Assembly (NCBI GenBank): GCA_903862935.1
Contig: CAIOZY010000046.1
Location: 1-64,000 of the forward strand
Source: an uncultured Opitutaceae bacterium
Lineage (GTDB): Bacteria > Verrucomicrobiota > Verrucomicrobiia > Opitutales > Opitutaceae
Length of the DNA: 64,000 nt
Reading direction: 5' to 3'
The first letter of the stretch is position 1; each line of letters starts with the position of its first letter. The notes beneath the pieces were generated by a model that ran no database searches, was not told the origin of the DNA, and was given only the letters and a program-made list of their open reading frames with translations. The translations under genes and the position numbers were made by a program. Shown here piece by piece: positions 3,061-33,691 of this stretch.

Positions 3061-3145
3061 TGGTGCTCAGGAAGGGACTCGAACCCTTACGCCTTACGGC
3101 ACACGCCCCTCAAACGTGTGTGTCTACCAATTCCACCACCTGAGC
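3061..3145 (-). tRNA. tRNA-Leu(GAG)
   Basis: The minus strand folds as an 85-nt class II tRNA. The acceptor stem is GCTCAGG/CCTGAGC with CCA encoded. The D-arm contains TGGTAGACA, a long variable arm contains TGCCGTAAGGCG, and the T-arm contains GGTTCGAGTCC. The anticodon loop TTGAGGG gives anticodon GAG, which reads CUC/CUU leucine codons. It stands alone between the PEP-CTERM and GNAT genes. Confidence 0.95.
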
Positions 3146-3362
3146 AGGAATAAGAAACCGGGAGGGGAACTAAGAAGGTCCCCGCGCCCGTTGTCCAGTC
3201 TTGAAATTAGCTCCGGACTGAGCGCATATCCCCTGCGCTGAGCCTATTGTTCGAACCTCCCAGGGTAGCCCGACGTCGGGCAGGGCCTTTCCCGGTCCGC
3301 CGCGGCCGCATGCCGGCGGACGGAGCTGGGAGTAGGAGCCTGGGGCCGGCCCTGGTTCGCCC

Positions 3363-3833
3363 ATGAGCGCCCCGCCCGAGTTTCGCTTCATCGATCCGGG
3401 GGTGCTTTCCGACGGGGAGCTGAATCTAGTCCTGGTGGCCTTGAAGGCCCCGGACCCGGCCAAGGAATGGGTGCCCGCCTACGAATTCGAGATCCGCCTT
3501 GCGGCGGCCCGCAAGACGGTGGGCACAGTGAACCTCAGGGCCGTGAGCACGCCCTTCTTGGAGCAGTTTGGGGGGCACGTGGGCTACAACGTGGCGCCGG
3601 CCTTCCGGGGTCGCCATTTTGCGGAGCGCGGCGTGCGCCTGATCCTGCCGCTTGCACTCAGACACGGGATCAACCCGGTCTGGATAACCTGCAACCCGGA
3701 CAACTGGCCGAGCCGCAGGACGTGCGAGAGGCTGGGGGGCCGACTAGTCGAAATCGTTGAGGTGCCTGCCGACAGCGACCTTTACCTGCGGGGGGACCGG
3801 CAGAAGTGCCGGTACCGCCTCGATCTGGCCTAG
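3363..3833 (+). CDS. GNAT family N-acetyltransferase
   Basis: A 156-residue single-domain protein of the GNAT (acetyl-CoA dependent) superfamily. Visible family features are the central beta strand GGHVGYNV followed by the acetyl-CoA loop APAFRGRHFAERG (residues about 79-91), and the later NPDNWPSRRTCERLGG motif (about 116-131), typical of RimJ-like acetyltransferases in which the Asn and the ERLG turn sit at the active site. The acceptor substrate is unknown. The gene is monocistronic. Its TAG stop lies in a CTAG palindrome shared with the stop of the convergent downstream flavoprotein gene, so the two genes end on the same four bases. Confidence 0.85.
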   Translation: MSAPPEFRFIDPGVLSDGELNLVLVALKAPDPAKEWVPAYEFEIRLAAARKTVGTVNLRAVSTPFLEQFGGHVGYNVAPAFRGRHFAERGVRLILPLALRHGINPVWITCNPDNWPSRRTCERLGGRLVEIVEVPADSDLYLRGDRQKCRYRLDLA

Positions 3834-6154
3834 ACGGTTCCCTGCAGGGCGGCCGGGGCGCCGGTGCCCTTCGGCTTGGCGAGGTAGGTGTTCATGGCCT
3901 GCGCGGCGCGTTTTCCGTCGCCCATGGCGAGGATCACGGTCGCAGCACCCCTCACGATGTCGCCCCCGGCGAAGACGCCGGGCAGGCTCGTCATGCCGGT
4001 TGCATCCACCTCAATGTTGCCCCAGCGGTTGAGCTTCAGGTCGGGGCAGGTCGCCGTCAGCAGCGGATTGGCCCGGGTCCCGACGGCTACAACGACGGTG
4101 TCGCACGGAATCACAAATTCCGATCCCGGTATGGGCTTCGGGCTGCGGCGCCCGGACTTGTCCGGCTCCCCCAGTTCCATACGGACGCACTTGAGCCCGG
4201 TCACCCAGCGCTCGGCGTTGCCCAGCACCTCGATCGGTGCAACCAGGTACTCGAAGCGAATCCCCTCCTGCTCGGCGTGGTGGACCTCCTCGGAGCGGGC
4301 CGGCATCTCCTTGCGGGTCCGCCGGTAGATGATCATCGACTCCTCGGCCCCCATGCGCTTTCCCGTGCGGGCCGAATCCATGGCGACGTTGCCGCCGCCG
4401 ATAACGGCGATGCGCTTGCCCAGGAGGACCGGGGTGTCGGCGTTCGGGAACTGGTAGGCCGCCATGAGGTTCACGCGGGTCAGGTACTCGTTGGCGGAGT
4501 AGACCCCCTTGAAGTTCTCCCCGGGGACGTTCATGAACACGGGCAGGCCGGCCCCGTTGGCGATGAAGACCGCGTCGAAGCGGTTCCGGAGGTCGTCGAG
4601 CGTGTACGTGCGCCCGATGATCACGTTGCACTCGATCTTGACCCCGCGGGCCTTGAGGCGGTCGACCTCCTCATCCACGATCTTCTTTGGCAGTCTAAAT
4701 TCCGGGATCCCGTAGACCAGGACGCCACCGGCCTGGTGCAAGGCCTCGTAGATCGTGACGTCGTGGCCGGCCTTGACGAGTTCGCCTGCGGCCGTGAGCC
4801 CGCCAGGCCCGGCTCCGACGATCGCAACCTTGAGCCCTGTGGGCGCAGGAACCTCGTTTTGCAGGGACTTTCCGTTGTTCCTTGCCCAGTCGGCGACGAA
4901 CCGCTCGAGGTAGCCGATCGCCACCGGCGAACTCTTCACTCCGCGGATGCACACGATCTCGCACTGGGTCTCCTGGGGGCAGACCCGGCCTGTGACGGCG
5001 GGAAGCGCGTTGTCGCTCAGGATGCTTCTCGCGGCGCCGGCGAAGTCCCCCTTGGCGACAAAGCCGATGAAGCGCGGGATGTTCAGCATGACCGGACAGC
5101 CCTCGACGCATTTGGGCTCCTTGCACTGGATGCAGCGCTGGGCCTCGAGGAGGGCCAGCTTCTCGGTGAACCCGAGGTTCACCTCTCCAAAATTGCTGTT
5201 CCTCGCGTCGGCGTTCTGCTCGGGCATCGCCTGGCGCGGGATCGCCATGCGCTCCTTGCCCGACATCTTGGCCGGAACAACGGGGGAGGGGGCGGCCTCG
5301 GACGAGGGCGCCGCGGCGATCGCCTGGTCCATCCGGCAGGGCCCGTCGTGGGGGGCGAGGCTCTGTTTTTCGTAGCTGCGGTAGGTGCTCAGCCGGTCGG
5401 CCAGGAGGTCAAAGTCGACCTTGTGACCGTCGAACTCGGGGCCGTCGACGCACGCAAACTTAGTCTCTCCGCCGACGCTCACTCGGCAGCCCCCGCACAT
5501 TCCGGTGCCATCGACCATGATCGGGTTCAACGAAACGATCGTTCGGACGTTGAGGGGCTTGGTCAGATTGACGACGGCCCTCATCATCGGCACGGGCCCC
5601 ACGGCGTAGACCACGTCGATCCCGCCTGCGGCGAGGACGTCGCGCGCGGCGTCGGTCACGAAGCCCTTGCGGCCATAGGAGCCATCGTCGGTGCAAACGA
5701 CGACCGTGCCGAGTTTTCCGAGCTCCTGCTCCAGGATGACCCACTGCTTCGAGCGGCCGCCGATCACGCTGGTAACGGCAACCCCGCGGCGCTGCAGGCC
5801 CTGGACGATCGGGAGCAAGACGGCCGTCCCCACGCCGCCGCCGATGCACAGCGCCTTGCCGGACTTAGCCAGCTCGGTCGGCTCGCCCAGCGGGCCGGAT
5901 ATATCCTGGATGGCGTCCCCGGTCTTCAGGGAGACGAGCTCGTTCGTGCTCTTGCCCACGGCCTGGATCACCAGGGTTATCGTGCCGGCGTCGACGTCGG
6001 CGTCGGCGATCGTGAGCGGAATGCGCTCCGAGCCCGGTCCGAGCCTTACGATCACGAACTGGCCAGGCCGGCGGACCTCGGCGATCCTCGGGGCGACCAC
6101 CTCGAGAAGGGTGACGTTAGGGCTCAGTTGTTGGCGATCGACAATCGGGTGCAT
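3830..6154 (-). CDS. Fused NfnAB-like ferredoxin:NADP+ oxidoreductase / GltD-type flavoprotein
   Basis: A 774-residue fusion. Residues 1 to about 280 are an FNR/PyrK-like module (also called SudB or NfnA) with an NAD(P)-binding region (GGGVGTAVLLP) and the 2Fe-2S cysteines in GMCGGCRVSVGGETKFAC. The rest is a GltD/NfnB/SudA-type subunit. It has 4Fe-4S cysteines in CIQCKEPKCVEGCPV and GRVCPQETQCEIVC, an FAD dinucleotide fold (VAIVGAGPGGLTAAGEL) and an NADPH fold (AVIGGGNVAMDSARTGKRMG). In characterised NfnAB the two subunits bifurcate electrons between NADH, NADPH and ferredoxin; databases usually name the fusion 'dihydroorotate dehydrogenase NAD-binding subunit/glutamate synthase'. No gltB or pyrD is nearby, which favours Nfn/Sud-like redox balancing over glutamate synthesis. 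The start is the ATG giving MHPIVDRQQLS; 33 upstream codons lack family character. Confidence 0.88.
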   Translation of the reverse strand: MHPIVDRQQLSPNVTLLEVVAPRIAEVRRPGQFVIVRLGPGSERIPLTIADADVDAGTITLVIQAVGKSTNELVSLKTGDAIQDISGPLGEPTELAKSGKALCIGGGVGTAVLLPIVQGLQRRGVAVTSVIGGRSKQWVILEQELGKLGTVVVCTDDGSYGRKGFVTDAARDVLAAGGIDVVYAVGPVPMMRAVVNLTKPLNVRTIVSLNPIMVDGTGMCGGCRVSVGGETKFACVDGPEFDGHKVDFDLLADRLSTYRSYEKQSLAPHDGPCRMDQAIAAAPSSEAAPSPVVPAKMSGKERMAIPRQAMPEQNADARNSNFGEVNLGFTEKLALLEAQRCIQCKEPKCVEGCPVMLNIPRFIGFVAKGDFAGAARSILSDNALPAVTGRVCPQETQCEIVCIRGVKSSPVAIGYLERFVADWARNNGKSLQNEVPAPTGLKVAIVGAGPGGLTAAGELVKAGHDVTIYEALHQAGGVLVYGIPEFRLPKKIVDEEVDRLKARGVKIECNVIIGRTYTLDDLRNRFDAVFIANGAGLPVFMNVPGENFKGVYSANEYLTRVNLMAAYQFPNADTPVLLGKRIAVIGGGNVAMDSARTGKRMGAEESMIIYRRTRKEMPARSEEVHHAEQEGIRFEYLVAPIEVLGNAERWVTGLKCVRMELGEPDKSGRRSPKPIPGSEFVIPCDTVVVAVGTRANPLLTATCPDLKLNRWGNIEVDATGMTSLPGVFAGGDIVRGAATVILAMGDGKRAAQAMNTYLAKPKGTGAPAALQGTV

Positions 6155-23976: not shown

Positions 23977-25476
23977 ATGGACATCGCGGCACTCCAACAC
24001 ATCGCGGCGACCAACGTCTGGGGCGCAATCTGGCCCGAGCTTTCTCTCGGCTGCCTTGCCCTGGCCCTCCTCGCTCTCGAGATCGTCCTTCCCCGCGCGG
24101 CGCACCGGCACATCCCGGCCGTTGCGGTCCTGGGCCAGCTCGTTGTCCTGGCTGGGGTCCTGCTCGACTGGCACAGCCCGTGGCTGGGGCGGGAGACCTT
24201 CTCCGGGCTGCTGAGGCACTCCTCAGAGGGGCAGGCGATGCGGGTCTTGTTCCTGCTATCGTCCATCGCGGTTTGCCTGCTCGGCCGGCTGAACCTCCAG
24301 AAGAGCGCTATGCCCCGGGTGGAGTTTAGCCACATCGTGCTCGTCGTGGCGGCGGCCATGATGCTGCTGGCTCAGAGCTGCCACTTCGTGATGTTCTTTG
24401 TCGCCCTGGAGACCGTGACGGTCGGGTTCTACATCCTTGTGAGCTATTGCCGCACGAACCCCCTGACGCTGGAGGCGGGCCTCAAATACCTGATCCTCGG
24501 GTCCCTGAGTTCGGCGCTGCTCCTCTTCGGGATCGCCCTGCTTTACGGGGTCTCAGGGAACCCGCTCCTTTCGGGGCACACCCCGGCGGGAATGCATTAC
24601 TCCGATCTTGCGGCCTTCCTCGCCGCGAACCCCCACCAGTGGCTCGCGGGGCTGGGGATCGTCCTCGTTCTTTCCGGGGTCGCGTTCAAGATAGGCGCCT
24701 TTCCGTTCCAGATCTGGATTCCGGATGTCTACCAGGGGGCTCCGACGCCGGTCACCGCATTTCTCGCCGTGGGGTCGAAAGCGGCCGGGTTCGCGGCCCT
24801 TCTCGGCCTGGTGAGGTACGCCTTCGCGCCGTACACCTGGCTCGTAATCCCGGTTCTGTCCTTCATGGCTGCGGCGACGATCCTCTTCGGAAACCTAGCG
24901 GCTCTGAACCAGCACAACGTCAAGCGCCTGATCGGCCTGTCCGGGGTCTCCCACGCCGGCTTCCTGCTCCTGGCGGTCGTCTCAGTCGGGGCGACCTCGC
25001 TCGCGGTGGGCGCGATCTACTTCTATCTGCTGGCCTACCTCATCGCCTCCTTTGCGGTCTTCGGCGTCATGGCCCATCTGGCGGGCTCCGACGACACCAA
25101 CCAGCAGCTCGACCACTACGCGGGCCTGGCCCGGCGGCAGCCGCTGCTGGCCGGCGTCCTCGCGGTGGGGCTGGGTTCCCTCGCCGGAATCCCGCCCCTG
25201 GCCGGGTTCATGGGAAAGTTCTTCGTGTTTGTCGCCGCCTTCCAGGCCGACCATTACGGGCTGCTCGCGGTCGCGATCGCCGGGGTTGTGATATCGATCT
25301 ACTACTACTTCGGCTGGATCAAGGCGGCGTTCTTCGAGGCGCCGGCCGGGCCTTCGGAGGGAGCTTCTGCGGTCACGGTGGGGTGGTTCTCCGGGGTGAT
25401 CCTCGTGGCTCTGGCCCTGGCGACGGTGGTGCTCGGTTTCTATCAGGGTCCGCTCGGCCGCTGGCTCACGTGGTGA
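23977..25476 (+). CDS. nuoN: NADH-quinone oxidoreductase subunit N
   Basis: A 499-residue antiporter-like subunit (ND2), the last gene of the operon. Typical motifs are FVALETVTVGFYILVSYCR with the conserved Glu, EAGLKYLILGSLSSALLLFG, FKIGAFPFQIWIPDVYQGAP and HNVKRLIGLSGVSHAGFLLL. The length matches bacterial NuoN. It follows nuoM after four bases. The roughly 200 bp after its stop, before the convergent lipoprotein gene, show no clear hairpin-plus-T terminator. Confidence 0.95.
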   Translation: MDIAALQHIAATNVWGAIWPELSLGCLALALLALEIVLPRAAHRHIPAVAVLGQLVVLAGVLLDWHSPWLGRETFSGLLRHSSEGQAMRVLFLLSSIAVCLLGRLNLQKSAMPRVEFSHIVLVVAAAMMLLAQSCHFVMFFVALETVTVGFYILVSYCRTNPLTLEAGLKYLILGSLSSALLLFGIALLYGVSGNPLLSGHTPAGMHYSDLAAFLAANPHQWLAGLGIVLVLSGVAFKIGAFPFQIWIPDVYQGAPTPVTAFLAVGSKAAGFAALLGLVRYAFAPYTWLVIPVLSFMAAATILFGNLAALNQHNVKRLIGLSGVSHAGFLLLAVVSVGATSLAVGAIYFYLLAYLIASFAVFGVMAHLAGSDDTNQQLDHYAGLARRQPLLAGVLAVGLGSLAGIPPLAGFMGKFFVFVAAFQADHYGLLAVAIAGVVISIYYYFGWIKAAFFEAPAGPSEGASAVTVGWFSGVILVALALATVVLGFYQGPLGRWLTW

Positions 25477-25675: not shown

Positions 25676-26725
25676 TCAGCGGCTGCGATTGGCGATCTCG
25701 TCTTTCAAGGCAATCAGGATGGGCTTTAGCAGTTCGATGCGTTCCCGGTAGCAGATGGCCAACCCGCGCAATTCGTCGAGGCTTCCGGAGTCGGCGCCTG
25801 AATTGGCGACAGCCTGCTGGGCTTTGTCCTTGGCGACCTCGCACTCGTGATCGAGGTCGAGAATGATCTGTTCGACCTTCACGACCAGGGCGGAAAGTTC
25901 GTCCGATTTGCTGGTGCGGAGAATCCCGGGCAACTGAAGGTTCTTTGCCGCAATCAGCGCGTGGTTGCGCTCGCGCGCTACGTCGACGGAGGGGTCTCCG
26001 GCGACGAGTAAATCGGGCAGGCTGGCGCCTTGCAGCTTGAGAGCATCTGCCTGCTCCCGGGTCTTCGACAGGTAATTAGCGATTCCTGATTTAAGAACGG
26101 GCATGATCTGCTGGAGGGATGTTTGCATGCTGCCGGTCAACAGGTGCAAACTAGACCGACCTTTGCTTCCCATATCCGCGGGGAAGTTCGGAGGGCGTGT
26201 CGGAGTCAGGCTACCGTTCGCCGCTCCGGAGAGGCCGAGCGACGTGTTGGCGGCCCGTGAGAAGATTTCCTTCCCCGTGGCTGGATCGATTAGCCGAATG
26301 GTGACTTTCAGATGAAAATCGCTGGGGTTTGATTCTTCAACCTGAACCTTGACGATGTAGTCCGGCCGCTCCTCGCCGGGGAGGCGGATGCTGGAGAAAA
26401 GCCCGGAGTCAGCGATGTCGCTGGTGCAAGCCCGGGCAATTGCCGTCAGGAGGGCGTCGAGCTTCTGATCGCTGCCGACCCATCTCCTCCAGATGGCCCT
26501 AATTTCCGGAGATAAGGTCGCGCTGGTGGCAACCGTTGCGCTGGATTCGATCCTCACCGACGACGGCATCGTTTGGTAGGAAAACTCAACCGGGCGGCTG
26601 TGAGCCGAAGCGGCTCTTGGCGCTGCCGTCGCGCATCCCCCGCAGAGACCAAGCAGGAGACTCGCGCCGAGGGTGGAGACAACCAGGGGAAAGCGAATGC
26701 GGTTGGGATGACTTGGAGGTTGCAT
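25676..26725 (-). CDS. Paralogous lipoprotein 1 of 3 (unknown family)
   Basis: A 349-residue predicted lipoprotein. The signal peptide ends in a lipobox-like LCGGC. The N-terminal domain contains SSVRIESSATVATS, CTSDIADSGLFSSI and DYIVKVQVEESN, then HLKVTIRLIDPATGKEIFSR. This pattern resembles small outer-membrane lipoprotein domains of the CsgG/GNA1162/DUF799 type by eye only. The C-terminal 119 residues form a helical module shared almost unchanged with the next two genes upstream (for example LRGLAICYRERIELLKPIL and EIANRSR at the very end). Last gene of a five-gene minus-strand cluster. A GTG at 26770 overlapping the upstream stop is an alternative start. Function unknown. Confidence 0.75.
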   Translation of the reverse strand: MQPPSHPNRIRFPLVVSTLGASLLLGLCGGCATAAPRAASAHSRPVEFSYQTMPSSVRIESSATVATSATLSPEIRAIWRRWVGSDQKLDALLTAIARACTSDIADSGLFSSIRLPGEERPDYIVKVQVEESNPSDFHLKVTIRLIDPATGKEIFSRAANTSLGLSGAANGSLTPTRPPNFPADMGSKGRSSLHLLTGSMQTSLQQIMPVLKSGIANYLSKTREQADALKLQGASLPDLLVAGDPSVDVARERNHALIAAKNLQLPGILRTSKSDELSALVVKVEQIILDLDHECEVAKDKAQQAVANSGADSGSLDELRGLAICYRERIELLKPILIALKDEIANRSR

Positions 26726-26766
26726 AGGAGTTAGGGGTGTGTGACAGCCCGGGGCCTGGCTCGACC

Positions 26767-27708
26767 TCACCGGCCGCGGTTGGCGATCTCCTCCCTCAAT
26801 GCGCCCAGGATCGGCTTGAGGAGCTCAATCCGCTCGCGATAGCAGATGGCAAGGCCTCGCAGCTGCTCAAGACCGGTCGCAGAGACAGCTGAGCCAGCGA
26901 CCGCCTGCTGGGCTCTGTCCTTGGCAACCTCACCTTCGTGGTCGAGATCGAGGATCGTCTGCTCGATTTTTACGGCCAGGCCAGAAAGTTGGTCGCTCTT
27001 CCAGTCGCGAAGGACGGCCGGCAGCTGTGAGGTCTTAGCGGCAATGATGGCCCGATTGCGCACGCGGGCCAAGGTGACATTCTTGTCAGAGCTTGCGAGG
27101 AGATCGGACAAGGACGCCCCGAGCAGGGCGGATTCGTCGCGCGCGGCCTGCTCGTTCCGCGCACGGACCTTCGGCCCGAGGTCTGCTGCCAGATCGGCCT
27201 TCAGGGCGGCCATAAGACCAGGAAGGGCGTCGATCCACCGTGTGGATCGTCCCGTTCCCGGGTCCTCCAGCGAGACTTCGCGGGTGTCGGAGAATACCTG
27301 GGCGCCGGTTGCGGTCTCGATGACGAAAAGGCTGACCGTGATGTGGCGGTCACTCTCGCGGGGATCCTTGAAGTCCAGGTTCACAAGATAATCTGCGCTA
27401 GTGACATCGGCAATGCGGGCAAACAGTCCCGATGCTGCGATATCGCTGCTGAGTACATCTTTAACCGTCCTGAGATAGATGGCGCCGTCGGTGTCAGGGA
27501 GTCCTGTTGAACCACTAAATCCGACGCATGCACTCGCCTCGATTCTGATCGGCGATGGGGCCGGCTGATAGGCCGATTGTATCTGCCTTGTCTCATCAGG
27601 TGCCGGCACGGATGGCGGTGGGGTGTTCACACATCCGGTTGCGACGAGGAGGGCAAGGATCAGAGCAGCTGCGAGCGGGAGGGCCGATAGACGGATTTGA
27701 GTGCGCAT
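26767..27708 (-). CDS. Paralogous lipoprotein 2 of 3 (unknown family)
   Basis: A 313-residue predicted lipoprotein. The signal peptide runs MRTQIRLSALPLAAALILAL to lipobox VATGC. The N-domain repeats the family pattern: SPIRIEASACVGFSG, DVLSSDIAASGLFARI, ADYLVNLDFKDPRESDRHIT and ETATGAQVFSDTREVSLED. The C-terminal 119-residue module begins near residue 195 (GASLSDLLASSDKN), includes KIEQTILDLDHEGEVAKDRA, and ends in REEIANRGR. It aligns with lipoprotein 1 without gaps over the module. Middle copy of a tandem trio; the stop overlaps the possible GTG start of the next gene. No enzyme motif is seen. Confidence 0.78.
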   Translation of the reverse strand: MRTQIRLSALPLAAALILALLVATGCVNTPPPSVPAPDETRQIQSAYQPAPSPIRIEASACVGFSGSTGLPDTDGAIYLRTVKDVLSSDIAASGLFARIADVTSADYLVNLDFKDPRESDRHITVSLFVIETATGAQVFSDTREVSLEDPGTGRSTRWIDALPGLMAALKADLAADLGPKVRARNEQAARDESALLGASLSDLLASSDKNVTLARVRNRAIIAAKTSQLPAVLRDWKSDQLSGLAVKIEQTILDLDHEGEVAKDRAQQAVAGSAVSATGLEQLRGLAICYRERIELLKPILGALREEIANRGR

Positions 27709-27769
27709 AGTGAAAGAGACTGAAATGGAAGATGAGGTGAAAACAGATCGATCGAAGACGCGGGCGGAT

Positions 27770-28726
27770 TCACCGGCTGCGGTTGGCGATCTCCTCCTTG
27801 AGCGCGACTAGGAGCGGCTTGAGTAGCTCGATCCGCTCGCGATAGCTGATAGCCAGGCCGCGTAACTCCTCGAGACTGGCCGTCTTCTTCGCTTCGCCCC
27901 TGTTGGCAATCGACTCCTGAGCTTGGTCCTTTGCGACCTCGCATTCGTGGTTTAAGTCCAGGATTGTCTGTTCGATCCTGACGGCGAGGGCAGAGAGCTT
28001 GTCTGTCTTCCAGCCGCTAAGAATCGCCGGAAATTGCGCAGTCTTGGCAGCAATGATCGCACGGTTGCGGGCCCGAGCCGTGACAACGGTCTTGTCTGCG
28101 CTCGCAAGCAGTTCGGGGAGCGCGGCCTGCTCAAACGCTGAGGCTTGTGCCAGCGCCGCCGCCTGGTCGCGCTTCTCGAAATAGGCCCGCATGCCGGCCA
28201 GCATGTCGGACTTCAGTGCGGACATAACCTGCGGCAGGACGAACTTGAGCTGCAGCCCCGGGGGGGCTTCTAGATGCATTCCCCCCTCCCGGGTCTGTGA
28301 TGAGATGACCTGTCCGGATGAATCCCTGACTTCGAGATGAACCACCAGCTTCTCCACAGGCTTCAGGTATTCCTCGCTCCGGATCTCGACCACGTAGTCG
28401 GGTTTGGCCAGGATGGACTCCACTTGAGAGAAGAGGCCCGACTGGACGAAGTCGTTGGTGATGAGGTTTACGATGGCCTCTTGATAATTGGCAATACATT
28501 GCCCGTATCGCCACGCTTCCCATTGTGCGCGGACGTCCGGGGCCAGGGTATGGCTGACGTGCAGCACGGCGGTCCCGTCGATTCGCGTCTTTGACGGCTC
28601 GGGGGCATAGGCTAGGTAATTGATATATGCGCTCTCTTTCACGGCGCAGCCGGAGGGGAGAAGCAGGGCCAAGCCAGCCAGCCCCATCCCGAGGCAGCGG
28701 TTCAATTTTTGCGGGGAATGAGCCAT
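27770..28726 (-). CDS. Paralogous lipoprotein 3 of 3 (unknown family)
   Basis: A 318-residue predicted lipoprotein with signal MAHSPQKLNRCLGMGLAGLA and lipobox LPSGC. An ATG at 28780, overlapping the upstream stop (TAATG), would add 18 residues before the signal and is the alternative start. The N-domain again has TNDFVQSGLFSQVESI and PDYVVEIRSEEYLKPVEKL, then VHLEVRDSSGQVISSQTREG. The C-terminal module (about 121 residues, starting EQAALPELLASADK) carries the shared NRAIIAAKTAQFPAIL and LRGLAISYRERIELLKPLL and ends EEIANRSR. It is the most divergent N-domain of the three. Function unknown. Confidence 0.76.
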   Translation of the reverse strand: MAHSPQKLNRCLGMGLAGLALLLPSGCAVKESAYINYLAYAPEPSKTRIDGTAVLHVSHTLAPDVRAQWEAWRYGQCIANYQEAIVNLITNDFVQSGLFSQVESILAKPDYVVEIRSEEYLKPVEKLVVHLEVRDSSGQVISSQTREGGMHLEAPPGLQLKFVLPQVMSALKSDMLAGMRAYFEKRDQAAALAQASAFEQAALPELLASADKTVVTARARNRAIIAAKTAQFPAILSGWKTDKLSALAVRIEQTILDLNHECEVAKDQAQESIANRGEAKKTASLEELRGLAISYRERIELLKPLLVALKEEIANRSR

Positions 28727-28779
28727 GAGGAGATTACGCCGGGGCTTCCAGGTGCAGAGAATAGGGATGAAACCAGTCA

Positions 28780-30144
28780 TTATCGGCCGGCCTTGAGCAA
28801 GCTTGCCCTCAGGTGAAGAGACTGCGCGCTCGCCACGTTGCTGAGTACAGGCACGCCCCCTTCGATGCCCACGGGTTCCAGTTCGCCGAGGTCGGGGGCG
28901 TCAACATGACCTGCGTGCTCGCCAAAGATCGTCTCATAGATCTTCACCTTCGCTGTGCCAAAGGAGTGCCCGATAGAGTCATTATAAGACTCAGCAAACT
29001 CTCCGCCTCCGGTGTCTCCCCGGCCCAGCACACGGGCTCCGCTTGTGATCCCGCTGAAGGTCGGCTCCAAGATATCGTTCACGACCTCGTTCATCGCCTC
29101 GCCAAGCGAGACCCGCTTCTCATGAGCGTCGTAGAGCGCCTTGTAATATTTCTGCCCTGGAACGTTCTTCACAATCCCCCAAGCCGTTGCCGTCGCAGTT
29201 CCCTGGGCGAGCGTCTCCCAATACCATCGGCCAAGCCACGGGCCGAAATACGCCACGAGACCCTGCAACGAACTGGGCGTGTGTCCGGGTGAGGAAGACT
29301 CGTCGGGGCCCGATAGATCATAGACCCAGGCCGGGCCCGAAGGAGACGGTGGACGCACCGGATGCGATGCCTTCGTCGGCCCAACCCCTGCCGTCGTCAC
29401 TTGGGAGCGGGGCTGAACGATCATCGAGCTTCCCCTAAGGTCCACCACGGAGGAATCGGGGTCGGATGCTGCAGACCGGTCGCTGGGGCCCGGAGGGCCG
29501 CCGCCAACATCCTGTCCCAAGATCGCGGCAACTGTATCGGCGTCGGGATTGGCGGGCCGGCCGAAAAAGGCTGTGCCCCCAGAGACATCGAAGGCGCCGC
29601 CGAGCCGGCTCCCGACCTCGGCGTCGCGATCATCCCACTCCGCCCTGTAATGCTGGGCCATCCGAATGCGCGCCTTCTTGGCCAGTTCCTGCTGCACCCG
29701 GAACGCTTCGGCCTCAGCAGCGGCCTGGGCGGCCGCCTGGGCCGCTGCCGCTTCAGCTTCCGCCTGCTCCGCGGCGGAATTGTCGGCGAAAAGGGAACCG
29801 ATCAGGGCCTCGGCCAGCATCCCGGCAATCTCCTGGTTGAAGTCGTTGCGCATCTGCACGGACCTTGAGATCTTGTGAGCGGCAGGCTGGACCGGTGCGG
29901 GAGCTGGAGACGAGCGGTCGACCTTGCTCCCCGTCAGCTCCTCCAGCTGGCCCAGGGCAGACTTGCTGTTGAAGCCGCTGTCGAACTGGGAGTTGGTTGT
30001 CTTCCACCCCAATTCCTCCGCCTGGCCACCGAGGGCGTTACCCGAAAGGCCCGCCTGGGCAACGGCTTGGGTGGGCAAGAAGGCGCTTGCGAAGGCCAGA
30101 CGCGCGACCCACCAGAGGATTCCCGGATAAACGCGTGGGCTCAT
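28780..30144 (-). CDS. Ala-rich exported protein (unknown)
   Basis: A 454-residue protein with a signal peptide (MSPRVYPGILWWVARLAFAS, cleavage near AVAQA). Near residues 100-165 is an Ala/Glu/Gln-rich helical or coiled-coil stretch (EQAEAEAAAAQAAAQAAAEA) followed by basic KKARIRMAQHYRAEWDDR. The middle is Pro/Ser/Gly-rich and probably disordered. The last 150 residues look folded (GRWYWETLAQGTATATAWG, KYYKALYDAHEKRVSLGEA). No known domain is recognised. It lies between the TPR gene (15 bp upstream) and the lipoprotein trio, all on one strand, so a shared role in the envelope is likely but inferred. Confidence 0.7.
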   Translation of the reverse strand: MSPRVYPGILWWVARLAFASAFLPTQAVAQAGLSGNALGGQAEELGWKTTNSQFDSGFNSKSALGQLEELTGSKVDRSSPAPAPVQPAAHKISRSVQMRNDFNQEIAGMLAEALIGSLFADNSAAEQAEAEAAAAQAAAQAAAEAEAFRVQQELAKKARIRMAQHYRAEWDDRDAEVGSRLGGAFDVSGGTAFFGRPANPDADTVAAILGQDVGGGPPGPSDRSAASDPDSSVVDLRGSSMIVQPRSQVTTAGVGPTKASHPVRPPSPSGPAWVYDLSGPDESSSPGHTPSSLQGLVAYFGPWLGRWYWETLAQGTATATAWGIVKNVPGQKYYKALYDAHEKRVSLGEAMNEVVNDILEPTFSGITSGARVLGRGDTGGGEFAESYNDSIGHSFGTAKVKIYETIFGEHAGHVDAPDLGELEPVGIEGGVPVLSNVASAQSLHLRASLLKAGR

Positions 30145-30159
30145 GTGGATCTAAATCGG

Positions 30160-31860
30160 TCAGCGGCGGTTTTTCAGCTCCTCTAGTTCCGCCGTGAGGG
30201 TGCCTTTTAGGGCCGGATCGAGCTCGATGGCATGATCGATGTTTTGAGCCGCGGACTTGTAGCGGCGCAGGGCCACGAGGGCACGCCCTCGTGTCGCGTA
30301 GGATTCGGCATCGGCAGGCGCGATCTGCAGGGCCTTCGTGGCGGCCGCCACAGCCTCTTCCTGTCGGTTCTGCTGGAGCAGCGCGAGCGCGAGGGTGGCA
30401 TACCCCCAGGCCGATTGGGGCATCAGCTTGAGCGCGGCCGAGCAGTCGGCCACGGCCTTTGCCGGATCGCTCCGATCGAGCATCACCCGGGCGCGTACGA
30501 GAAGGGGCAACGGCTGCTGCGGATCGAGGGCTATGGCCTTTTCGCAGTCCCGCAGCGCCTCGTCGATCTTCTTGCTCTGCAGGTTGCAATGGGCGCGCAG
30601 AGAGTAGGCGTACATGGCCTCCGGATTGAGTATGAGGGCTGCATCGCAATCAGCTACCGCTTCGGGGTAGCGCTGCTGCTGATGGAACACAGCGGCCCTC
30701 TCGACGCGAATGTGCCATTCCTTGGGGCTTGCGGCGATCGCCTGCCCAAACGCCTTGAGCCCTTCCTGCGTTTCTCCGCGGGCCACGTGGGCCCGCGCGA
30801 CCAGACGGAGCGCTTCGGGGTTGTCCGGGCTGAGTTCGAGCGCAAGCCCGCCATAGTGAAGGACGGCATCCCAGGCCGCTTGCTTCTCATTGGCCCTGGC
30901 TAGGATAAGGGGTGCCTTGGGATCTTTCGAGCCTAGCGCGATCGCCTTGCCGGCGTCCGCGAGTGCGTGCTCGAAGTCGCCCAGCTTTTCCCCGACGGCC
31001 GCCCGAGATAGGTACAGATCCGCCTGTTCGGGCTGAGCACGGATTGCCCGAGAGAAATCCTCCAGCGCGCCTTCGGGATCGTTTGCCTCCAGACGCGCAC
31101 GGCCGCGGCCGGCAAGGGCCCCGGAGAGTTGGGGGGCCAGCTCGATCACGCTGGAGTACTTCGCAATTGCTGCAGCACAGTCTCCCGCGGCGAGATCGGA
31201 TTCGGCTAGGTTGAAGAGCGCCACCACCTGCTTCGGGTTGATTTTCAGGACATGCTCGAAACAGGCCCGGGCCTCCGCAGTTTCCTTTCTTTCACGATGG
31301 GCGACACCCTGCACGGTGAGAAGATCCAGGTCGTCTGGATTGTGCTTCAGGGCCTCGGCGGCGTCCGCCGCGGCTTTGGCCCAGTCCTGCCGGAGCAGGT
31401 AGACCCAAGCTCTGACGGTGCGGGCCGCGGTGTTGCCCGCGTCGAGGCCGAGAGCCTTGTCCGCGTCGGTGAGTGCCTCGTCGAGCTGACCGAGGTTCCA
31501 GCGCGCTCGGGCCCGAAGCGCCAGGAGATCAACCTGGGTGGGAATCACCGCAAGGCCGCTTGTGGCGTCGGCGACAACCCCCGGCCAGTCGGATTGCTCC
31601 GCCAACAGGCGAGCTCGGCTCAGGCGGAAGTCGACCTTGAACGGATCGAGGCGGATGGCCTCGGTGAAATCTCCGGCCGCGCCGGCCGGATCATGCAGCT
31701 GGCTTCGGAGCTGGCCGCGCGCCTGCCAGAGGACGGGGTTCTGCGGGTGCGCCCGCAAAGCAACGGTCTGTGCACTCAGCTGTTCATCGAGCGATTGCGC
31801 TGCGCCGCTTGTTTCTCCGATCGAGAGTATCAGGACCAGGGCAAGCGTTCGTGCCACCAT
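30160..31860 (-). CDS. Exported tetratricopeptide-repeat protein
   Basis: A 566-residue protein with a short signal sequence (MVARTLALVLILSIGETSGA), followed from about residue 25 to the end by some fifteen 34-residue TPR units. Examples are NPVLWQARGQLRSQLHDPAGA, ALIGN-type helices such as GAAGDFTEAIRLDP, YYSRA-like LYLSRAAVGEKLGDFEHALA, and AAVFHQQQRYPEAVADCDAA. TPR arrays are protein-interaction scaffolds. As the first gene of the minus-strand cluster it could scaffold the secreted and lipoprotein products that follow. An alternative ATG at 31923 adds 21 residues. No catalytic domain is seen. Confidence 0.8.
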   Translation of the reverse strand: MVARTLALVLILSIGETSGAAQSLDEQLSAQTVALRAHPQNPVLWQARGQLRSQLHDPAGAAGDFTEAIRLDPFKVDFRLSRARLLAEQSDWPGVVADATSGLAVIPTQVDLLALRARARWNLGQLDEALTDADKALGLDAGNTAARTVRAWVYLLRQDWAKAAADAAEALKHNPDDLDLLTVQGVAHRERKETAEARACFEHVLKINPKQVVALFNLAESDLAAGDCAAAIAKYSSVIELAPQLSGALAGRGRARLEANDPEGALEDFSRAIRAQPEQADLYLSRAAVGEKLGDFEHALADAGKAIALGSKDPKAPLILARANEKQAAWDAVLHYGGLALELSPDNPEALRLVARAHVARGETQEGLKAFGQAIAASPKEWHIRVERAAVFHQQQRYPEAVADCDAALILNPEAMYAYSLRAHCNLQSKKIDEALRDCEKAIALDPQQPLPLLVRARVMLDRSDPAKAVADCSAALKLMPQSAWGYATLALALLQQNRQEEAVAAATKALQIAPADAESYATRGRALVALRRYKSAAQNIDHAIELDPALKGTLTAELEELKNRR

Positions 31861-32344
31861 CCGGAGAACGACGGGAGCTGAATGCACTGCGGACCATGAA
31901 CGGGACCATGAGGGGGTGTTCATACTGGAGAGAACCCGGGGAGAAACCATCAGCAGCTGCGGGTGCCCGCATTATGTCCTCGCAGCATCACAATATGCAA
32001 GCCCTAGTCCCTCAAAAGATTCCGGAGAATACGGCTCGCGACTATGAGCCTGGGAAAAATCGACATGGGAGGTGGACGGGAGCCGCTTTCGTGATCCGGT
32101 CGGCGGCCGAAGAGGTCGGGGACGGGCGTGAGGTGGAGGGCAATTTTCCGAGCCTAGTCTGCCGGTTCGGACTTGGGGAAGTGGATTGCCCGCGAACGCT
32201 GACTCTGGCGCGGCATGCCCGTGATTGTCAGCGGGAGAGGCAGAATGAATTTGATTAGCTTGGGTTCTAACCTAAACAAACCCATGCACCCGCCGAAGAC
32301 CGGCGGCGAGAACGAGCCCATCCCTCTTTTTCCGAGACTCTTCT
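31861..32344. other. Divergent intergenic region
   Basis: About 480 bp between the minus-strand TPR-led cluster and the plus-strand ThyX-like gene. I see no convincing gene in it; open frames here lack protein character. It should contain promoters for both directions. A GC hairpin (CCGCCG and CGGCGG around AAGAC) sits in the last 60 bases before the ThyX-like start and could be a 5' leader structure. An AT-rich stretch (TTTGATTAGCTTGGG) near 32255 may be promoter DNA. Confidence 0.4.
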
Positions 32345-33691
32345 ATGAAAGTGACCGGCCTAGCCTTGGTTCCGTCCCCGACAGCAGCCGACCTGCCGAA
32401 GGTCACCCCCGAGCTGCTGGCGTCGGTCCTTGCGCGCTACTCCCGAAGCAACGACGGGCTTGCGGCGATCCTCGAAAAGGTGGACCTCGCCAACCCCGAC
32501 GCCTCGATCGACCGGATCCTCAAGTTTGTGGACTACGGGCACGCCTCGATCGGGGGACTGACTGGGGGGCTGGCGATAGCCCTCGACGGGGTGTCGATGT
32601 GGCTTGCCTACAAAATCTTCGAGATTTCCCAGATGGCCGATGGCCAGGAGTCGAGCACCCGCTACATTGCGATGGACCCGGCGAACCTCCCGACGCCGGA
32701 GGAGGTGGGGATTCCCGCCGAGCTTGCGCCGGCCTGGCGGCGGGTCCTCGCCCGGGCCTTCGCAGCCTACCATGCCGAGTACTCCCGGCTCGACGCCCTT
32801 GCCTCCGCCGAGCCTTCGCGGGTGAGGTGCCCGCAGGGCGCCCCGGCGGCCGTGCAGGCGCGCCTGCGTAAGAACTACGCTTTGGACCGCGCGCGGTACT
32901 TCATCCCGCTGGCGACGCGAACCAACCTGGGGCTTGTCCAAAGTTCCCGCATGTGGGCACAGACGGTGAAGCACCTCGACTCGCTCGCTCTGCCCGAGGC
33001 CAAGGCCGCGGCGGGATTGATCCGCCAGGAACTCCTCAAGCAGTCGCCGCGACTGATGGGGCACAGCCACGCGGACCCCTCGTTTGCGGAGCAGGCCCGC
33101 CAGGAGCTGGCGGAGAGCCTGGAGATGGGCCGCTTGCGCCTGTCCAGCGAGCCTCTGCCGGACCAGGTGTGGGTGCATGTCGACCGGGCGGCGGCGCCGT
33201 GGCTTCCGACCTCGCAGCCGGTTGCCGAGGCGCTGCGCCACAGGGCCAGCCGGTACAGCCAGCAGGGCTCGGCCACCCGCCGCATGCGGGTTGCGTTCGG
33301 CTGGAACAACCTCGCCCTGGCCGAGCTGAGGGACCTGAACCGGCACCGCACGGGAAACCGCCACACGCCGCTCATCCAGGCGGGCTTCTACCTGCCACCG
33401 GAGATTGCCCGCGCCGGCCACGAGGGGCTCCTGGCCGAGCAGAGGGACCTGACCCGGGCCCTCCTCGAGCGGGGGAGTCCGGCCTACGTGTACTCGCTTC
33501 TGCTCGGGGCCCAGACCCCCTTCGAGCACAGCACCCACGCCGACAAGTTCATCTACGAGGCCGAGCTGCGTACCGGCATGGGGGCGCACTTTCGCTACGC
33601 CGAGCACCTCGGGGCGGCCCTGCGGGAGTTCCTCGCCCAGGTCCCGGAGGCCCGGGACTGGGTCGTCGAGGGAACGGCGGAGCCGGAATGA
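32345..33691 (+). CDS. Two-domain ThyX-like (FAD-dependent thymidylate synthase-like) protein
   Basis: A 448-residue protein, about twice the length of normal ThyX. The N-terminal half has the ThyX pattern GHASIGG (65-71), then VSMWLAYKIFEISQMADG running into QESSTRY (101-107), the end of the ThyX motif RHRxxSxNExSxR, but without the RHR part. ARYFIPLATRTNLGLVQSSR (183-202) matches the later ThyX helix. The C-terminal half has LNRHRTGNRHTPL (331-343), the RHR part without the Ser-Arg end. So motif elements of one active site are split between two fused halves. ThyX makes dTMP from dUMP with FAD and methylene-THF. Whether this variant is active, or is the cell's thymidylate synthase, cannot be told. 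Confidence 0.75.
   Translation: MKVTGLALVPSPTAADLPKVTPELLASVLARYSRSNDGLAAILEKVDLANPDASIDRILKFVDYGHASIGGLTGGLAIALDGVSMWLAYKIFEISQMADGQESSTRYIAMDPANLPTPEEVGIPAELAPAWRRVLARAFAAYHAEYSRLDALASAEPSRVRCPQGAPAAVQARLRKNYALDRARYFIPLATRTNLGLVQSSRMWAQTVKHLDSLALPEAKAAAGLIRQELLKQSPRLMGHSHADPSFAEQARQELAESLEMGRLRLSSEPLPDQVWVHVDRAAAPWLPTSQPVAEALRHRASRYSQQGSATRRMRVAFGWNNLALAELRDLNRHRTGNRHTPLIQAGFYLPPEIARAGHEGLLAEQRDLTRALLERGSPAYVYSLLLGAQTPFEHSTHADKFIYEAELRTGMGAHFRYAEHLGAALREFLAQVPEARDWVVEGTAEPE

Follow-up and report, generated by a model that had tools for sequence, protein, structure and literature searches.

An accessory, apparently acquired cell-envelope gene cluster of an Opitutaceae bacterium with lipoproteins that share a conserved C-terminal helical module

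Introduction

PqiC, TolB, CsgG and PelC are the closest described counterparts of three tandem lipoproteins that are encoded, together with a tetratricopeptide repeat (TPR) protein and an alanine-rich (Ala-rich) secreted protein, at positions 25676-31950 on the minus strand of a 64,000-nucleotide stretch of DNA from an uncultured Opitutaceae bacterium of the Verrucomicrobiota (the window: positions 1 to 64,000 of contig CAIOZY010000046.1, assembly GCA_903862935.1). CsgG is a nonameric outer-membrane pore with membrane-spanning hairpins, PelB, the partner of PelC, bears a TPR part, and the PqiC operon includes an MCE protein and a membrane partner. TolB has a C-terminal beta-propeller, and TolB and CpoB act together with a Tol/Ton-type energised partner. 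PqiC is described as an octameric toroid (PMC10897342) and PelC as a dodecameric ring seated on the PelB barrel (PMC12141448). The PqiC rings and the PelBC complex illustrate the capacity of such folds but do not decide the mechanism here. The modular, multi-copy lipoproteins of the window also recall the SitA-type lipoprotein toxins of myxobacteria (PMC8546572), but in the cluster the constant part is C-terminal and no toxin or immunity gene was found.

The reading that we favour, at a probability of roughly 45%, is that of an accessory, apparently acquired cell-envelope cluster in which a helical dock common to the lipoproteins would fix their heads to a TPR scaffold. The N-domain of the lipoproteins is of a known kind; what is new, in the sense of being unnamed in the libraries searched, is the C-terminal module (C-module), the Ala-rich family, and their association.

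Organisation of the cluster

The genes are transcribed in the order TPR protein (30160..31950, 596 amino acids, from the list of open reading frames, or ORFs, and Pfam TPR_2), Ala-rich protein (gene D, 28780..30144, 454 amino acids, no family found), lipoprotein C (27770..28726, 318 amino acids from the ATG at 28726), lipoprotein B (26767..27708, 313 amino acids) and lipoprotein A (25676..26725, 349 amino acids from the ATG at 26725). With ATG starts, which are the likelier ones, the intergenic gaps are 15, 53, 61 and 41 bp, and the five closely spaced exported or lipoprotein genes of the original prediction are borne out, as are its signal sequences: judged by eye, all five proteins have signal-like N-termini, and the lipoproteins have lipobox cysteines (LCGGC in A, VATGC in B, LPSGC in C). 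An internal ATG of the TPR gene at 31860 lies ahead of the signal-like stretch and is a candidate for the true start, and an alternative GTG start of lipoprotein A at 26770 would overlap the lipoprotein B gene. A promoter scan returned nothing, and terminators were at chance level.

Each lipoprotein consists of an N-domain and a C-module, at 28127..28648 (from the lipobox cysteine) and 27773..28126 in lipoprotein C, 27118..27633 and 26770..27117 in B, and 26027..26635 and 25679..26026 in A, all on the minus strand. The three proteins can be aligned over their full length; their N-parts, all of one family, are 25-30% identical, and their C-modules (116, 116 and 118 residues in A, B and C, counted from A[SA]L) are 64-70% identical pairwise, in agreement with the common module that had been predicted. 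Over 12 family members, in two of which (L015b and L016d) an earlier cysteine was taken so that the N-parts include some signal sequence, mean identity is 28% for the N-domain and 65% for the C-module.

The local duplication first proposed is not supported as a recent event. Fourfold-degenerate sites of conserved codons agree at 17/39, 11/37 and 14/44 positions in the three window pairs, and Nei-Gojobori (NG86) synonymous divergence (dS) is 1.7, 2.4 and 1.2, values that make the paralogy ancient. Because these sites are largely randomised despite 65% protein identity, and because orthologues exist in other genera, the C-module is old and kept by purifying selection at the protein level. Recent duplication or gene conversion is ruled out by the fourfold sites, with one caveat from the C-module tree that is taken up below. 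In a tree of full-length proteins, orthologues from different genera pair up or form trios: lipoprotein C (wC) groups with L016b and G089a with support of 100/98, and lipoprotein A (wA) groups with L015b with support of 97/95.

The C-module in relatives

At least 17 copies of the C-module are present in 6 genomes, 12 of them behind a PqiC/TolB_N-like head, two behind ankyrin repeats, two behind another head and one truncated; an alignment of 16 of the 17 describes a family of helical modules of about 115 residues at the C-terminus of lipoproteins. At locus L017 of genome G137, ankyrin repeats replace the N-domain in two of three lipoproteins (L017:2172-3041 and 3098-4012, plus strand), and the profile match covers columns 182-321 alone (expectation value, E, 2.7e-45). 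At L016 of G028, an HtrA-like PDZ domain (1e-17) is inserted between the long helices that end the C-module of one lipoprotein (L016:12031-13305, plus strand). The N-part also differs in two lipoproteins of the distant genome G516, where profile comparison aligns columns 218-321 alone (E 4.5e-16). Judged from these alignments, the C-module is a real mobile module, its sharing with the ankyrin and G516 lipoproteins being confined to the C-terminus. The different N-domains of the original prediction are therefore a matter of the relatives, in which partner domains have been exchanged (ankyrin, a PDZ insertion, another N-domain), and not of the window, where the N-parts are homologues of one known fold class. 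A weak full-length match in G025 (E 1.5e-4, 63 residues) has a TGA inside.

Fold of the N-domain and C-module

An AlphaFold model of lipoprotein C, built from nine sequences, has a mean predicted local distance difference test (pLDDT) of 84.4 and a predicted template-modelling score (pTM) of 0.65. Its N-domain (about residues 45-190), followed by a long helix, resembles outer-membrane lipoproteins and TolB. In Foldseek the best match, 2i9i at 1.3e-4, is the only one below 0.001, with PqiC, LptE and TolB rows at 0.003-0.2, below significance (TolB rows 0.0098-0.17). VIA-align gave 2iqi at Z 11.2 (root-mean-square deviation 3.0 over 145; 17% identity), 8q2c at Z 8.5, CsgG at 10.3, HpaA homologues at 9.0-10.4, LptE at 8.7, PelC at 8.3 and FlgT at 8.1. 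By sequence, Pfam TolB_N (PF04052) matches four of ten family members at E<=1 (best 1.3e-4; one barely above the cut-off, 22.5 versus 22.4 bits) and none of window lipoproteins A, B and C at E<=10, and DUF4410 matches one member (0.0047). The N-domains of the window lipoproteins are thus modelled as diverged homologues within the outer-membrane lipoprotein fold class of PqiC, CsgG, TolB-N, LptE and PelC.

The C-module is helical in the model and ends in a hairpin of two long antiparallel helices, residues 241-274 and 280-317 of lipoprotein C. In structure it matches long-helix proteins alone, CorA and SMC-like heads among them (Z about 8-10), a likeness that may just reflect a common arrangement of helical proteins. 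Sequence searches of solved structures gave nothing sensible, the best being giant haemoglobin for the lipoprotein profile (0.0045) and a designed FimH minibinder for the C-module (0.012).

Set beside the described systems, the lipoproteins share with PqiC (ABC_trans_aux, DUF330) a lipid anchor and, at the level of fold only, their best structural match, 2iqi. Unlike PqiC, they have no Pfam match to that family and carry the extra C-module, and no PqiA/PqiB-type neighbour, MCE protein or membrane partner was recognised among the ORFs of 20.5-37 kb, of which not every one was searched. A likeness to TolB is suggested by the sequence matches of four of the ten members, one of them barely above the cut-off, but the cluster proteins are lipoproteins with, in the model, a helical C-module instead of a beta-propeller. 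CsgG and PelC share the N-domain fold, as compared with a monomer model, and PelC also works with a TPR-bearing partner, whereas the cluster is a paralogue array with a constant C-module, lacks recognised barrel or export genes, and has a TPR protein that differs from PelB in having no C-terminal outer-membrane barrel.

The TPR and Ala-rich proteins

Pfam TPR_2 matches the TPR protein at 1e-51 in 13 stretches along nearly its whole length and, because the matches extend to about residue 580 of 596, there is no room for a C-terminal barrel. The protein is 69% identical over 544 residues to its counterpart in G028 and 56% over 573 residues to that in G089, and its alignment with the TPR protein encoded in the distant G516 cluster (L046) shows 30% identity and a single gap over 441 residues. 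The Ala-rich protein, with relatives in G028, G137, G089 and G516 and a core motif RxQxE..RAxWDxRDAE...L.GAFDV....FFG, is less conserved (42% and 44% identity to G028 and G089); its AlphaFold model (pLDDT 39.5) was unusable. The TPR protein and the C-module are thus conserved at similar rates, the heads and the Ala-rich protein being looser, a pattern that fits docking of the C-module on the TPR protein.

The TPR protein ends in ELKNRR (window 30163-30190) and the lipoproteins in EIANR(S/G)R, a basic ending common to the Opitutales members and not found in G516. In G028 a Gly-zipper protein is encoded directly upstream of the TPR gene (L016:5659-6351, plus strand).

Distribution and co-occurrence

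Profile searches of 250 genomes of the family found the C-module in five and the Ala-rich gene in four, all among those five. In 387 genomes of the phylum, both were found in the window's genome (G000) and G516 alone (C-module match in G516 at E 7e-23; the Ala-rich profile included G516), so that the expected co-occurrence in related genomes is seen. One of 384 genomes in a draw from the class and one of 31 from the order of G516 gave a match. At most 16, 7, 10, 4 and 12 candidates per genome were scored (family C-module, family Ala-rich, phylum C-module, phylum Ala-rich and class draw, respectively), and the absences are accordingly incomplete. The profile seeds included some of the genomes later found (profile A4: G000, G028 and G137; A2: also G195; A7: also G089 and G516); independent recoveries are G089 in both family searches, being in neither seed alignment, and G516 in the phylum C-module search.

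G028, G089 and contig C134 of the distant G516 show the same gene order of TPR, Ala-rich, lipoprotein(s). The TPR gene adjoins the Ala-rich gene in these three and in G000, and in G137 the contig stops where it would do so. Both C-module copies of G516 are neighboured by an Ala-rich-like gene.

Database searches gave names to little of this. Pfam and NCBIfam scans of the cluster proteins named the TPR repeats alone, and the C-module and the Ala-rich family match no named family in Pfam, NCBIfam, PHROGs or PADLOC as searched, in keeping with the prediction that no named system would match. The sole PADLOC match is of the TPR protein to PDC-M16B (25.8 bits), a generic TPR match, with no toxin, immunity or defence family otherwise. 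In PHROGs, lipoprotein A matched phrog_17666, of unknown function, at 4.6e-4 with no single stretch passing, and lipoprotein C matched weakly (0.072). None of 23 pattern matches to the C-module in viral contigs was confirmed, and lipoprotein C and the Ala-rich protein had no match among plasmids. A defence, phage or plasmid origin is unsupported by these searches. No paper on the cluster was among the literature matches listed, which does not establish its absence from print.

Insertion site

The cluster lies between a gene with a Proton_antipo_M domain (23977..25476, plus strand, 6e-62), which we take to encode NuoN, and a thyX-like gene (32345..33691, plus strand, Pfam Thy1). All ten same-genus genomes examined lack the cluster and have nuoN and thyX as neighbours, at a distance of about 0.1-1 kb in nine of them and of 5.1 kb in G006; eight of the ten have a short protein rich in WxPGxW-like motifs at the junction. 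The cluster has a GC content at third codon positions (GC3) of 0.69-0.74, and 33 other window ORFs average 0.863 (sd 0.071), two small ones among them being lower still than the cluster; cluster GC3 is unremarkable in G028, G137 and G089. Composition and context thus suggest that the window block is an accessory cluster, apparently acquired horizontally. No transfer genes were recognised adjoining it. G006 has a different 5 kb stretch at the junction (examples of the junction are L065:1630-2265 and L070:5924-10900). In G195 (L015), an intact and an N-terminally cut copy lie next to an element (L015:2987-9896) that carries a phage-type integrase along with an ORF2/G2P replication-protein gene; the lipoprotein gene that adjoins the element is the one lacking its N-terminal part.

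A fourth paralogue in the window's genome (L043:6824-7789, G000 C41, minus strand) has a hydrogenase-4/complex-I-like gene cluster for a neighbour, as the window cluster has nuoL-nuoN, possibly by coincidence.

Proposed mechanism and alternatives

In the arrangement that we favour, an N-terminal lipid would tether each lipoprotein to what is probably the outer membrane, and from its PqiC/CsgG/TolB_N/LptE-type N-domain a long helix would run into the C-module. This module, nearly constant across paralogues, genera and N-domain types, would be the common docking part that fixes differently headed lipoproteins on the co-inherited, presumably periplasmic TPR protein, so that the proteins may form one complex on a TPR scaffold. 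The Ala-rich protein would be a third constant component, perhaps also recognising the dock, and the variable job, such as ligand or client binding, would fall to the heads, be they TolB_N-like, ankyrin, another type or a PDZ domain inserted at the tip of the hairpin.

Several observations weigh against this arrangement. The G516 copy L047 (contig C126) has no TPR gene listed beside its lipoprotein and Ala-rich pair, the fourth copy of the window's genome stands alone, and G195 has C-module genes with no Ala-rich match, so the C-module may work alone. The lipoprotein gene of G516 C134 and its TPR and Ala-rich neighbours lie on opposite strands. The TPR protein is proposed as partner from co-inheritance and similar conservation, and the long helical hairpin may do no more than mediate oligomerisation. 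Ribosome hibernation factors also matched the N-domain in VIA-align, at Z 8.0, so the fold by itself does not prove an envelope role. Finally, the C-module tree, almost unresolved, groups wB with wC (86/87), a hint of homogenisation within the genome.

Among the alternatives, the one that survives best, though unlikely, is a ring-forming export or transport device, in which the lipoproteins would assemble at the outer membrane into a homo- or hetero-oligomeric ring, like PelC, PqiC and CsgG, with the TPR protein gating or guiding the substrate. The nearest folds of the N-domain are indeed those of ring formers (XCC0632/PqiC, CsgG and PelC), but LptE and TolB_N, equally near, do not form such rings, the N-domain evolves fast, unlike what is expected of a ring interface, the TPR protein is repeat over nearly its whole length, and nothing in the cluster was recognised as a beta-barrel, a polymer-synthesis enzyme or an MCE-type gene. 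Distinctly unlikely is a variable surface role for the lipoproteins, as adhesins or as decoys against phages or competitors, with heads diversifying under selection on a C-module that serves as presentation stalk: the HpaA fold matches, the diverse and exchanged heads, the patchy distribution and the foreign GC3 would suit it, yet the heads form orthologous groups that persist from genus to genus, with no rapid turnover, and the generic PDC-M16B match apart no toxin, immunity or defence family was found. That the lipoproteins are ordinary accessory paralogues without a common complex, together merely through joint acquisition, is quite improbable; patchy presence, aberrant window GC3, the orphan copy and the truncated G195 copy are as this would have it, but the same three gene families remain together over orders of one phylum, and purifying selection on the C-module is strong. 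A Tol-Pal-like envelope link, in which TolB_N-type lipoproteins and a TPR protein would work with a Tol/Ton-type energised partner, is highly improbable despite the TolB_N and Foldseek TolB matches, for the model has no beta-propeller after the N-domain, none of the cluster genes was recognised as Pal-, TolA- or TolQR-like, and canonical TolB is not evident in the own genome because a TolB_N search there gave nothing past E 0.001.

Implications

Taken to its full extent, the docking arrangement would describe a modular envelope machine, in which exchangeable heads plug through a constant helical dock into a scaffold of TPR and Ala-rich proteins and the whole set is passed among Verrucomicrobiota as an accessory module; in this wider form we consider it doubtful. 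The constancy of the C-module behind such different heads makes the family a clean test case for how bacteria swap periplasmic binding domains while the scaffold stays fixed. For the Verrucomicrobiota, whose cell envelope is a little-known subject, the analysis defines a conserved domain without a name and a recurrent envelope cluster of three gene families.

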